From: Phaeobacter italicus
GTDB taxonomy: Bacteria; Pseudomonadota; Alphaproteobacteria; Rhodobacterales; Rhodobacteraceae
NCBI RefSeq assembly: GCF_001258055.1
Contig: NZ_CVRM01000032.1
Location: 124,001 to 188,000, forward strand
Reading direction: 5' to 3'
DNA: 64,000 bases
Made by a program: the position numbers and the translations under genes. Below, in pieces: positions 21,898 to 31,129 of this stretch. The first letter of the stretch is position 1. The number at the start of each line of letters is the position of its first letter. Below the pieces are notes generated by a model. It made no database searches, was not told the DNA's origin, and saw only the letters and a program-made list of their open reading frames with translations.

Positions 21898-22727
21898 GCC
21901 AGCGCCGCTTCGCGCGTGTCGTCATCCACTTCAGGACGGGTGCCGAACCAGCGTTCAAATCCCGGAACCGCCTGATGCAGCAACATGCCCAAGCCATCAA
22001 CCGTTGTGCAGCCAACGTCCTCTGCCCATTGCAGCATTTCTGTCTTGAGGGGGGTGTATACCAGATCGGTAACAACCGTATCCTTGCGCAAACCATCAAG
22101 TGGAACCCGCAAGCGGGGTTTGCCAACCATGCCCAGGGACGTGGTGTTCACCAAAAGCGCCGCCTGTTCCACCACATTGCCGACCTGCACCCAATCAACC
22201 ACCTTGATACGAGAGCCAAATTCGTTGCGGAACTGATCCGCGCGTTCGCGGGTACGGTTGCTGAGAAGGATCTCAGGCACCCCCGCTTCGAGCAGGGAGG
22301 CAATGACAGCACGGCTGGCCCCGCCGGCCCCAAAGACAACCGCAGGCCCCGATGCAGGATCCCAGTCAGGTGCGGATTGATGCAGGTTCGTAAGGAAGCC
22401 ATAGCCGTCCGTATTATCCGCAAGGATCGAACCATCCGGACGAAAGATCAGCGTATTGGCCGCCCCGATCAATGTCGCCCGATCGGTAACCTGATCGGCA
22501 ATTTCCATGATCTGCTCTTTGTGCGGAATGGTGACATTGGCGCCGACAAATCCCATTTTGGGCAGTGTGCGCAGCACTTGTTCCAATTCTGTGGTCTCGA
22601 CATGCAGCGGCACATAGTGGCCGGCGATGCCGTACTTCTTCAACCAATGGCCATGTACCAGGGGCGAACGGGAATGCGCCACCGGATTGCCGATCACTCC
22701 AGCCAAAGGGATCTTTGCATCACTCAT
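21894..22727 (-). CDS. aroE: Shikimate dehydrogenase
   Basis: 277 residues. It reduces 3-dehydroshikimate with NADPH in aromatic amino acid synthesis. The substrate site [10 protein letters not shown], the catalytic lysine in [10 protein letters not shown], the nucleotide loop [10 protein letters not shown] and the motif NTTSLGM are all visible. Its start overlaps the maf stop by 4 bases. Confidence 0.95.
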
Positions 22728-23323
22728 TGTTCGATTACTCCCTGAAGGGCGAGATAGTTGATGAGCTCCAGCAACGGCAGCCCCAGGACATTAAAGTAGT
22801 CGCCATCAACCTGCGTGAACAGGCGAACACCTTCTTCTTCCAGTTTATAGCCGCCCACCGCATGACGGATGCTCTCCCAGTTGCGATCAACATAACTGCG
22901 CAGATAGGCATCCGAACTGGCCCGCATCCGCAAGCGAACCTGACCGACATGGCGCCAGATCGGCTCTCCGTCGCGATAGATCACAGCAGCAGACAACAGC
23001 ATGTGCCGCTTACCGCGCATTTCCTTGAGCTGACGCAAAGCATCGTCAGGATCTTTTGGTTTTGATAACAATTTTCCATCAAAGTCTAAGACCTGATCAC
23101 ATCCCAGGACCAACACGCCTGGATGTTTCGAACTGACCTTGCGGGCTTTGGCCTCTGCCAATGTGTCAGCGATATCTCTGGGGCTTGCCTCCTCTGCAAG
23201 GAGGGCTGCCTTGATCGCATCCTCGTCGATGCGGGCGACAGAGACCTCAAACGGTATCCCCGCCTGCCGAAGCAGAGCGGCCCGGATCTGTGAACCTGAA
23301 GCCAATAGGATGTGGGTAGCCAT
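22724..23323 (-). CDS. maf: Maf-family nucleotide pyrophosphatase
   Basis: 199 residues. Maf proteins hydrolyse non-canonical or modified nucleoside triphosphates. The N-terminus [20 protein letters not shown] is a variant of the usual S-x-S/P-R-R signature: the double arginine is reduced to IR. The later motifs [16 protein letters not shown] and [12 protein letters not shown] are conserved. It is the first gene left of the candidate origin and heads the leftward operon. Confidence 0.9.
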
Positions 23324-23728
23324 GTGGAAAACCCCGTGGGCAAGAGTAAGATGTTCTCAGGATGGTTTGTATGAAATTTCCGCCATATCGCAAGCCGGGG
23401 AGAAGTCTGAAATCTCGGTTTGCTTGCCGGCAGATTCGCCCTGAGAGGATAGGGATAACTTCTCATCAGTGGATATGTCACTTACCCCAAGTTCACCCCA
23501 AGGTTATCCCCGAATAAAACGCAAATAAAACACAGTGTTTTTTCCTTGTTTTTATGACCTCAACGCCAAGGGGCATCTTGTTTTGGGGGTAAAGCTGGAA
23601 AGTTTCCCACAGTGAGGATAAGCCAGTGGAAGAGTCACTTATCCACGGAAAAACAGGTGCTCTACTAAAACATCATCCTTTTAAAATCCTTTATTTTAAG
23701 GGGAGAGAGGGAACCGAGAGGCAAAGCC
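23324..23728. other. Candidate chromosomal replication origin (oriC)
   Basis: 405 bases without a gene, between divergent maf and hemJ. DnaA-box-like 9-mers include TTATCCACG (23639-23647) and, on the minus strand, TTATCCTCA (23613-23621), each one mismatch from TTATCCACA. Weaker ones are at 23504-23512, 23603-23611 and, on the minus strand, 23450-23458 and 23468-23476. Two A/T-rich stretches (about 23511-23560 and 23660-23700) could be unwinding elements. The flanks maf-aroE-coaE-dnaQ and hemJ-rho-mnmE-mnmG-rsmG-parAB are those seen at alphaproteobacterial origins. The gap must also hold the maf and hemJ promoters. Confidence 0.65.
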
Positions 23729-24184
23729 ATGGATCTGACTGACCTGCTCTTTGAAATTTACCCATATGCCAAATCACTGCACATCATGGCGGTGATCAGT
23801 TGGATGGCAGGTCTGTTCTATCTGCCACGTCTCTTTGTCTATCACGTGGAACAGGCGCAGAAGGTCCCTGACAGTCTCCCCATCTTTGTCATGATGGAGG
23901 AGAAGCTGCTGCGCATCATCATGCGCCCAGCGATGATTGTAAGCTGGCTGGCAGGGGTGATTATGGTTCTGACCCCTGGTATCGTCGACTGGAGCTCTCT
24001 GTGGCCCTGGAGCAAGGGTCTGAGCGTTCTTGGCATGACCTGGTTCCAACACTGGCTTCTCGCCCGTCACAGAGAGTTTGCAGCGGGTGAGAATACACGA
24101 ACCGGTCGACGCTATCGGATGATGAACGAAGTCCCGACGTTGCTGATGGTGGTCATCGTTATTTCGGTCATCTTCAAGTTCTGA
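23729..24184 (+). CDS. hemJ: HemJ-type protoporphyrinogen IX oxidase
   Basis: 151 residues with about four membrane segments. HemJ is the membrane enzyme that oxidises protoporphyrinogen IX in bacteria lacking HemG and HemY. The N-terminal helix carries the family's conserved histidine and arginine (KSLHIMAVISWMAGLFYLPRL), followed by VYHVEQ and a later MRPAMIVSWLAGVIM segment. In other alphaproteobacteria heme genes also flank the origin. A purine-rich ribosome region (GGGAGAGAGGGA) lies upstream. Confidence 0.9.
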   Translation: MDLTDLLFEIYPYAKSLHIMAVISWMAGLFYLPRLFVYHVEQAQKVPDSLPIFVMMEEKLLRIIMRPAMIVSWLAGVIMVLTPGIVDWSSLWPWSKGLSVLGMTWFQHWLLARHREFAAGENTRTGRRYRMMNEVPTLLMVVIVISVIFKF

Positions 24185-28796: not shown

Positions 28797-29410
28797 TGGA
28801 CCGAGTTGAAATCGCGGGTGTGGATGTTTCACGTGAAACATACGACCGCCTGAAGCACTACGAATCTCTGGTTCAGAAGTGGTCCCCCAAGATCAACTTG
28901 GTGGCGAAAAGCACGCTTGAGGACGTATGGGAGCGCCACATCGTGGATTCTGTCCAGGTGTGCGATCTGGTTACCTTCCCAGAGACATGGGTGGATATCG
29001 GCAGTGGAGGTGGCTTTCCTGGTGTCGTTGTCGCGATCATTGCTGCGGAAAAGGCGCCGGACTGCCAAGTGACGCTCATTGAAAGCGATCAGCGAAAATG
29101 TGCGTTTCTTCGGACCGCGTTGCGCGAATGCGGGGTTAAGGGCAGGGTGATTTCCGACCGGATTGAGAAGGTTGCGCCGATGGGTGCTGGGGTTCTATCA
29201 GCCCGTGCCCTTGCTGATCTTAGTCTGCTGTTGGAATTTGCAGAAAGACATCTGTCCAAGGATGGTATCGCGCTGTTTTCAAAAGGGGTTCAGTGGAAAA
29301 AAGAAGTGGATAACGCAAGGAGCCAATGGCGTTTCGAGCTGGAATCCACTAATAGTTGGACTGAACCCGATGCGGTTGTTCTGAAGATTGAGGGAGTAGC
29401 GCGTGTCTGA
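28796..29410 (+). CDS. rsmG: 16S rRNA (guanine527-N7)-methyltransferase RsmG (GidB)
   Basis: 204 residues. It methylates G527 of 16S rRNA using SAM. The SAM motif is VDIGSGGGFPGVVVAI. The N-terminal VSRET (residues 10-14) is encoded by a parS palindrome, which fixes these residues in many alphaproteobacterial homologues. Its start overlaps the mnmG stop by one base and its end overlaps parA by 8 bases. Confidence 0.96.
   Translation: MDRVEIAGVDVSRETYDRLKHYESLVQKWSPKINLVAKSTLEDVWERHIVDSVQVCDLVTFPETWVDIGSGGGFPGVVVAIIAAEKAPDCQVTLIESDQRKCAFLRTALRECGVKGRVISDRIEKVAPMGAGVLSARALADLSLLLEFAERHLSKDGIALFSKGVQWKKEVDNARSQWRFELESTNSWTEPDAVVLKIEGVARV
28825..28840. other. parS: parS centromere site inside rsmG
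   Basis: Second perfect TGTTTCACGTGAAACA, 1.9 kb from the first and 1.4 kb upstream of parB. It lies wholly in coding sequence. Confidence 0.95.
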
Positions 29411-30212
29411 TCTGTCTCGGCCAACTGGGCCTCGCATTATCGCAGTTGCCAACCAAAAAGGTGGCGTTGGAAAGACAACAACCGCGATCAATCTTGCAGC
29501 TGGCCTGGTTGAATTGGGATATCGCGTACTTGTCGTTGATCTGGACCCGCAGGGGAATGCCTCTACCGGTTTGGGGATCGAGGCGAACGACCGCGCCAAC
29601 ACAACCTATGATCTGCTGATTGGCGATGTGGCTCTTCAAGATGTCATTCGCGAGACCGAAATTGAAGACCTGTGCATTATTCCGGCAACCGTCGATCTGA
29701 GCTCGGCTGATATTGAACTCTTCAGCAATGAAAAGCGCAGCTTTCTTTTGCACGATGCGCTGCGTCAGCCTGCAATGGACGAATACGACTGGGATTATGT
29801 CCTGATCGATTGCCCGCCTTCTCTGAACCTCCTGACTGTCAATGCGATGGTCGCGTCCCATTCCGTTCTGGTCCCGCTGCAAAGCGAGTTTTTTGCACTG
29901 GAAGGGGTGTCTCAGCTAATGCTGACCATTCGCGAAGTCCGGCAGACAGCCAACCCCAACCTTCGAATTGAGGGGATTGTTCTGACGATGTTTGATCGCC
30001 GGAACAATCTGTCCCAACAGGTTGAGCAGGACGCCCGCAGCCATTTGGGTGAGCTGGTGTTCGAAACAAAGATCCCGCGCAATGTGCGGGTGAGCGAAGC
30101 GCCTTCATACGCTTTGCCTGTGTTGAACTACGACACAAACTCTCTGGGGGCGAATGCATATCGTGCCCTGGCAGAAGAACTGATTGCGAGACATCAGAAA
30201 CTCGCAGCCTAA
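29403..30212 (+). CDS. parA: Chromosome-partitioning ATPase ParA
   Basis: 269 residues from a GTG start inside the rsmG end. ParA drives segregation of the origin along the nucleoid. The deviant Walker A is KGGVGKTT, preceded by IIAVANQ. Later motifs include VVDLDPQGNASTGLG and YVLIDCPPSLNLLTVNAM. There is no N-terminal DNA-binding extension, so it is a chromosomal rather than plasmid type Ia protein. parB follows after 23 bases. Confidence 0.96.
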   Translation: MSDLSRPTGPRIIAVANQKGGVGKTTTAINLAAGLVELGYRVLVVDLDPQGNASTGLGIEANDRANTTYDLLIGDVALQDVIRETEIEDLCIIPATVDLSSADIELFSNEKRSFLLHDALRQPAMDEYDWDYVLIDCPPSLNLLTVNAMVASHSVLVPLQSEFFALEGVSQLMLTIREVRQTANPNLRIEGIVLTMFDRRNNLSQQVEQDARSHLGELVFETKIPRNVRVSEAPSYALPVLNYDTNSLGANAYRALAEELIARHQKLAA

Positions 30213-30235
30213 CAGCAGCATCTGGAGGCGCAGTA

Positions 30236-31129
30236 ATGTCCGATAAGAAAAACAAACCCCGAGGATTGGGAAGAGGCTTGTCAGCTCTAATGGCCGATGT
30301 GAACCCGGAACCTGTCAGCACAGAAAAACAGGCAAACCGAAGCACCGAAGTTCTGGTGCCAATTGAAAAAGTTATCGCGAACCCGGATCAGCCGCGTCGC
30401 CAGTTCTTGCAGGAAGACCTGGACGATCTGACGGCCTCTATTCGGGAAAAGGGGGTGTTGCAGCCTCTGATCGTCCGTCCACGTCCTGGTGGGCAGTATG
30501 AGATCGTTGCAGGTGAACGCCGCTGGCGTGCCGCCCAGGGCGCGCAACTGCACGAAGTCCCCGTTATTATTCGTGACTATTCTGATGTAGAGATGATGGA
30601 AGTTGCCATCATCGAAAACATTCAGCGGTCTGACTTGAACGCTATGGAGGAAGCGCAGAGTTACAAGCAGCTGATGGACAAGTTTGGCCACACCCAAGAA
30701 AAAATGGCAGAAGCCCTTGGGAAGAGCCGTAGTCACATCGCAAACTTGGTTCGCCTTCTGCATCTTCCGGATGATGTTCAGACACTGGTCCAGGAACGTA
30801 AGCTGTCAGCCGGCCACGCACGTGCCCTCATCACTTCTGATAATGCGTCCGATCTTGCGAAAAAGATCGTCAAGGGCGGGCTGTCTGTGCGTGCGACCGA
30901 GGCGCTGGTGAAGAAGGACGCAGCGGGCCTTCAGACAGCGCAGGCGCGGTCTGCCAAAAAGCCGGCGGAAAAGGACGCCGACACCAGGGCGCTGGAGGGT
31001 GACCTCTCTGCTGCTTTGCGGATGAAGGTGTCGATTGACCACCGCGCTGGCGGGGAAAGCGGCACAGTCACGATCAGCTATTCGACTTTGGATGAACTGG
31101 ACGATCTTTGCGGACGTCTTAGCCGTTAG
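30236..31129 (+). CDS. parB: Chromosome-partitioning CTPase ParB
   Basis: 297 residues. It binds parS and slides as a CTP-dependent clamp. The N-terminal ParA-contact motif is [10 protein letters not shown]. The CTP-binding box GERRWRA and the ENIQRSDLN segment (about 125) lead into the helix-turn-helix ([14 protein letters not shown]). A basic linker and the C-terminal dimerisation domain close the protein. Its 3' end overlaps the convergent DUF454 gene by 11 bases. Confidence 0.96.

Follow-up and report, generated by a model that had tools for sequence, protein, structure and literature searches.

The window (the whole 64-kb stretch of DNA analysed here, part of a 291,887-bp contig, C32, of a 37-contig draft genome) contains, between the divergent genes maf and hemJ, an intergenic gap with a GC content of 45.7%, against 57.9% in the window. 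HMM searches identified maf, aroE, coaE, dnaQ and secB on the left and hemJ, rho, mnmE, rsmG and parB on the right; mnmG and parA were identified by ORF sequence only. Most of the flanking order given in an initial annotation, made from the sequence alone, is in this way confirmed by HMM. The hemJ HMM score, 124.2 bits, falls under the curated cut-off of 138.05, and the closest named HemJ relatives are roseobacters: Roseobacter sp. MED193 (79%), Epibacterium, Phaeobacter, Tritonibacter and Ruegeria. Two ORFs, 23086-23481 (minus) and 23139-23444 (plus), extend from maf into the gap. Both overlap maf and were taken as spurious; with these set aside the gap is gene-free and exactly 405 bp long, as first annotated. 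Features are listed by window position.

22724-23323, minus strand: maf, left flanking gene (ORF list and HMM)
23323-23331, minus strand: DnaA-box-like site TTTTCCACA, one mismatch, overlapping the maf start codon
23324-23728, no strand assigned: predicted chromosomal oriC, the maf-hemJ intergenic gap, 405 bp (skew minimum, conservation)
23433-23437, no strand assigned: GANTC site (GATTC), from a consensus scan
23450-23458, minus strand: weak DnaA-box-like site TTATCCCTA, two mismatches, unvarying within the genus, little conserved across the family
23468-23476, minus strand: weak DnaA-box-like site ATATCCACT, two mismatches (box scan)
23504-23512, plus strand: DnaA-box-like site TTATCCCCG, two mismatches; five aligned congeners read TTATCCCCA
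from 23584, minus strand: DnaA-box-like site, two mismatches (box scan)
from 23603, plus strand: DnaA-box-like site, two mismatches (box scan)
23613-23621, minus strand: DnaA-box-like site TTATCCTCA, one mismatch (box scan)
23632-23636, no strand assigned: GANTC site (GAGTC), from a consensus scan
23639-23647, plus strand: DnaA-box-like site TTATCCACG, one mismatch, proximal to the unwinding region
23648-23661, plus strand: spacer of 14 nt from the proximal box to a CTA triplet; some relatives, but not the window, have a second, abutting box here
23660-23699, plus strand: putative unwinding element CTCTACTAAAACATCATCCTTTTAAAATCCTTTATTTTAA, in which trio-like triplets precede a T-rich tract
23729-24184, plus strand: hemJ, right flanking gene (ORF list and HMM)
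29403-31129, plus strand: parA-parB, about 6 kb from the predicted origin (parA by ORF sequence, parB by HMM)

The GANTC sites are presumably CcrM methylation sites. The consensus scan returned no GATC site in the gap and no exact match there to the CtrA sequence TTAA-N7-TTAA or to the IHF consensus, exact matches being all that it covered for these two. An Rfam search over the whole 64-kb window gave no match at gathering score.

The gap is strongly enriched in DnaA-box-like sites. It contains two with at most one mismatch, where 3000 dinucleotide shuffles average 0.10 (p 0.004), and seven with at most two mismatches, where the shuffles average 1.24 and never reach seven. The one-mismatch pair, 23613-23621 (minus) and 23639-23647 (plus), had been noticed at the outset along with several weaker sites; the scan gives five two-mismatch sites, at 23450, 23468 and 23584 (minus) and 23504 and 23603 (plus); a third one-mismatch site, at 23323-23331, had been overlooked. 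No perfect DnaA box occurs within the 64-kb window. When 405-bp stretches along the entire 291,887-bp contig are ranked by number of sites, the richest begins at 23323 for at most one mismatch (three sites) and at 23311 for at most two (nine sites).

At the right-hand end, the box at 23639-23647 is followed by the 14-nt spacer and then by CTACTAAAACATCATCCTTTTAAAATCCTTTATTTTAA. A 40-nt run free of G starts at 23660 and is the longest in the 64-kb window, both strands considered; of all 40-mers in the window, the one from 23661 has the lowest calculated duplex stability. The two A/T-rich stretches reported initially are both present, at about 23516-23557 (74% A+T) and 23662-23703 (71%), but in the genus conservation is confined to the second: across six same-genus genomes, 39 of the 41 columns at 23662-23702 are identical, compared with 8 of 42 in the first. 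The 40-mer from 23515 is the seventh least stable distinct 40-mer of the window; the left stretch was set aside as an unwinding site because of its poor conservation.

Conservation of the locus in the genus and family

When the DNA of the gap was searched across 149 family genomes, only three matched (its own genome, one congener and one weak match, E 4.6e-4), so relatives were located through the HemJ protein. Among 95 genus and family loci fetched in this way, maf adjoins hemJ in 84, and the gap measures 340-480 bp in 81 of those 84; the other three, of odd length (169, 585 and 317 bp), are omitted from the 81-sequence alignment used below. The window's own genome is counted among the 95, the 84, the 81 and the six same-genus sequences. 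No match to maf was found beside hemJ in the remaining 11 of the 95 loci, of which two (L009 and L038) are incomplete records and most others spanned only about 1.2 kb upstream. HemJ matches outside the 95-locus set are those of G095, G102, G017, G054 and G083, the second match of G131, and weak matches (E above 1e-7) in G091, G023, G020, G037, G135, G050, G081, G067 and G047. Of 120 sampled family genomes, 20 gave no HemJ match (E <= 0.001) and five further ones a weak match only (E above 1e-4); the right flank of the origin may therefore differ in family genomes that have no clear HemJ match.

The same-genus comparison comprises six genomes, the locus of a seventh being incomplete. The gap is exactly 405 bp in all six, with 277 of the 405 columns invariant, including all nine columns of the box at 23323-23331 and 19 of the 20 columns directly upstream of hemJ. 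A further segment, 23420-23460, contains GCCGGCAGATTCGCCCTGAGAGGATAGGGATAAC and is invariant in 40 of its 41 columns; the only recognised motifs within it are one GANTC site and one weak DnaA box.

Box conservation across relatives had been proposed as a test at the start, and the boxes do recur at the same columns family-wide. Counting sites within two bases of fixed columns in the 81-sequence alignment, we found the minus-strand box at 23323 with at most one mismatch in 40 of 81 gaps and with at most two in 52; the corresponding counts are 36 and 49 for the plus-strand box at 23504, 22 and 53 for the minus-strand box at 23613, and 37 and 56 for the plus-strand box at 23639. At most two mismatches are seen in 18 of 81 gaps for the minus-strand site at 23450, in 33 for that at 23468, and in 29 for the abutting box at column 23649.

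In the same alignment, made without any anchor, the most conserved block of the gap, whether 12, 16 or 20 nt are considered, starts at 23662, where the family consensus reads CTACAacAtCATCATC. On the predicted strand, 76 of 84 gaps have a box with a G-free run of 20 nt or more after it, against 15 of 84 on the other strand and 3.1 expected, by a criterion devised after the alignments had been viewed and with shuffles that preserve single-base content only. A table of triplets was anchored on CTAC, which 65 of the 84 gaps passed, so its first triplets are selected for. CTA stands 22 or 23 nt from the start of the box in 58 of these 65 gaps, and CAT stands at the fourth and fifth triplets, positions outside the anchor's selection, in 38 and 36 of them.

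Two side observations concern DnaA-box-like sites in other settings. The conserved box at 23323-23331 overlaps the maf start codon, and DnaA may have an effect on maf expression. In a congener, G075, a second group of three one-mismatch boxes (C1, 12142-12464) precedes a 16S rRNA gene (13183) by about 0.7-1 kb, and two similar boxes occur near the end of the window's contig (C32:291654-291683) in a stretch 71% identical to that of G075. This second group could represent DnaA control of the rRNA operon or, alternatively, a titration site.

GC skew and the position of the probable origin

The cumulative G-C curve, which spans the window genome's own 291,887-bp contig, reaches its minimum at window position 23268, 56 bp from the gap. 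The best single skew change point on that contig is 23500, and none of 2000 block permutations reaches the strength of its step. The opposite turn of the skew is not visible, because the genome is a draft of 37 contigs. For G075, whose 3.65-Mb main contig was sampled at 20 points of 20 kb each, skew is negative immediately left of the maf-hemJ gap and positive immediately right of it. Samples between 1 and 1.6 Mb are positive, and those from 1.8 Mb onward are negative apart from one at zero. If that contig is the circular chromosome, the gap and the terminus are separated by about half of it. The skew check suggested by the initial annotation thus places the minimum at the gap in the contig itself and a sign change at the same gap in a congener.

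Ten further relatives, examined over 20-kb flanks, show a skew step in the expected direction in nine cases and a true change from negative to positive in four. At the gap of G104 the step runs in the wrong direction, and at that of G034 there is hardly any; G101 has a small step and no maf match beside hemJ in the fetched stretch. Along the sampled chromosomes of G104 and G034 the skew is a mosaic, which is read as rearrangement, although the origin may have moved there.

These data bear on where replication begins. The gap very probably is the DnaA-dependent oriC of the main chromosome, as far as sequence analysis can tell. It combines a skew minimum at the site (weaker or absent in other relatives) with a conserved cluster of boxes above chance, though one without a perfect box, and, by calculation, with an unwinding element beside those boxes, the least stable 40-mer at 23661. 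The candidate origin proposed initially between maf and hemJ accordingly gains support from skew, from the box cluster, from the unstable G-free tract and from an architecture conserved among relatives, all of them read from sequence. By the same evidence the gap would be an ordinary bacterial origin with one unusual detail, a strongly conserved and slightly non-standard strand-opening sequence.

Might the gap instead be a divergent promoter or leader region for maf and hemJ, its boxes regulating transcription, with the origin elsewhere, for example by dnaA? The divergent arrangement of the two genes, the box across the maf start codon and the near-invariance of the 20 columns upstream of hemJ, which is promoter- or leader-like, would all suit such a region. 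We nevertheless consider this highly improbable, since the box cluster, the unstable tract and their near-constant spacing are common to the family, and since the skew minimum is at the gap and not at dnaA, 129 kb away; an origin at dnaA was rejected on that ground. A relocation of the origin in part of the family, by which the gap would be active in some genomes and a remnant in others, G104 for example, deserves somewhat more weight but is still unlikely. It is suggested by the lack of a skew turn at the gap in G104 and G034, and by a change from negative to positive in the sampled skew of G104 at 2.2-2.4 Mb, which is 0.3-0.5 Mb away from its gap. Against it, the mosaic skew of both genomes is as expected of rearrangement, both keep a maf-hemJ gap (407 and 404 bp), and their tracts are two to three mismatches from CTACAACATCATC. 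Relocation is in any case irrelevant to the window genome, whose skew minimum fits the gap.

With the gap taken as oriC, a probable roseobacter-type origin is pinned to a few hundred bases and accompanied by a family-wide map of its parts. It is of use as a reference point for genome maps and for estimating growth rates from sequencing coverage.

Proposed strand opening and comparison with known origins

Initiation at the gap may be pictured as follows. DnaA would bind the boxes at 23323, 23504, 23613 and 23639 together with the weaker sites, and a DnaA filament starting from the 23639 box would be led to the right, onto the complement of the G-free tract, 3'-GATGATTTTGTAGTAGGAAAA...-5', starting at 23662. 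The region of about 23660-23699 would then open towards hemJ, the helicase would load, and two forks would depart in opposite directions. Opening would resemble that of the basal unwinding system (BUS) of Bacillus subtilis, at an origin in the Caulobacter-type position.

As described in PMC8287927, the BUS has a DnaA box and a spacer, after which triplets with the consensus 3'-GAT-5' on the complementary strand are repeated. As in the B. subtilis system presented there, the window has a box, a spacer, first complementary-strand triplets reading 3'-GAT-5' and an A/T-rich tract, and its plus-strand CTACTA resembles the C. difficile tract 5'-CACCTACTACTATTACTACTATGA-3' given in PMC7561715. Unlike the BUS, the window's triplets read 3'-GAT GAT TTT GTA GTA-5', with the middle adenine in the two leading ones only. 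The general BUS pattern, applied as a box with at most two mismatches, a spacer of 0-16 nt and at least three 3'-NAN-5' trios, and excluding the tandem-box extension and later screening of the published procedure, is absent from both strands of the window's gap. Among the 84 gaps, 31 contain it in the 130 nt closest to hemJ, against 5.0 expected. Because the window's gap lacks the published pattern, we do not class the window's unwinding end as a BUS member, while its predicted layout is BUS-like.

Two accounts of this tract were weighed. That it is an ordinary A/T-rich DUE in which the triplet pattern is incidental is a serious possibility, to which we give rather less than an even chance. 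The absence of the general pattern (three NAN trios no more than 16 nt from a box) from the window speaks for a plain DUE, as does the CTAC anchor, which itself selects the first triplets and was passed by only 65 of 84 gaps. What a plain DUE leaves unaccounted for is that the 23662 block tops conservation of the gap in an alignment made with no anchor, that the G-free tract is strand-specific (76 against 15 of 84), that the box-to-CTA spacing is 22 or 23 in 58 of 65 anchored gaps, and that CAT recurs at the unselected fourth and fifth triplets (38 and 36 of 65). More tentatively still, Rhodobacteraceae, and perhaps many alphaproteobacteria, might open their origins through a variant DnaA-trio. 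A first 3'-GAT-5', placed at an almost constant distance of 22-23 nt from where the proximal box starts, would be followed by in-phase triplets that mostly have no adenine in the middle (3'-GTT-5', 3'-GTA-5'). Such a variant would match the deviant trios without a middle adenine that PMC8287927 suspects among the 15% of genomes where its search detected no trio. If the conserved triplet tract does bind DnaA as a single strand, the rule for bacterial origin opening would be broadened.

Searches of the main texts of a collection of open-access papers place these findings. None linked a replication origin to maf and hemJ, though an earlier description is possible. For a DnaA-trio in Alphaproteobacteria the same main texts yielded only a paper on epsilonproteobacterial origins, and for Caulobacter with a basal unwinding system only a web-server paper; for DnaA-box origins in roseobacters they yielded only PMC6699656 and a review of secondary chromosomes. 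In PMC6699656, origins of 101 Rhodobacteraceae strains were predicted with Ori-Finder, parAB proximity being one criterion. The gap resembles those origins in belonging to the same family-level group and in fitting the criteria by which they were chosen: the GC-disparity minimum, the local GC minimum and the proximity to parAB. The difference seen is that no sequence, flanking-gene or box map was found in the main text of PMC6699656; overlap with its predictions is possible. Origins in Rhodobacteraceae were thus already predicted in bulk in that work; what may be new is the variant DnaA-trio, with the conserved CTAC...CATCATC tract read in that way as the possible novel angle.

The origin of Caulobacter and Rickettsia lies between hemE and COG1806/ppsR, and a table in PMC1914354 gives the Caulobacter crescentus Cori as 404 bp. 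The gap is like this Cori in its comparable neighbourhood (maf side, hemJ-rho side), its length of about 400 bp and its DnaA boxes. Unlike Cori, it shows no exact CtrA or IHF consensus and is not flanked by hemE and COG1806/ppsR: no match to ppsR (PF03618, COG1806 family) was found in the window genome, which is listed as 99.99% complete, and hemE lies on another contig (C22). The origin here therefore looks like the Cori position stripped of both nearest flanking genes. The initial description of the flanks as the conserved alphaproteobacterial origin neighbourhood holds for the comparable surroundings and fails for the classical flanks.

Among the best-scoring 30 of 98 genomes with hemE matches in a class sample of 115, maf lies within about 1.5 kb upstream of hemE in 15 and hemJ within 1.5 kb downstream in 25; hemJ comes right after hemE in three of those 25 and about 1 kb further on in the rest. 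Leaving aside two of these 30 loci that belong to the window's own family, 16 of 28 other-family loci have a box followed by a G-free tract no more than 400 bp upstream of hemE; the opposite strand shows this in 3 of 28, and shuffled sequence would give 1.3. The suggestion of a Rhodobacterales-type origin is for this reason only partly borne out: the origin is partly distinct, but with a similar box and G-free tract upstream of hemE in other families, the predicted "Rhodobacterales type" seems to be one form of a layout that is more widely shared.
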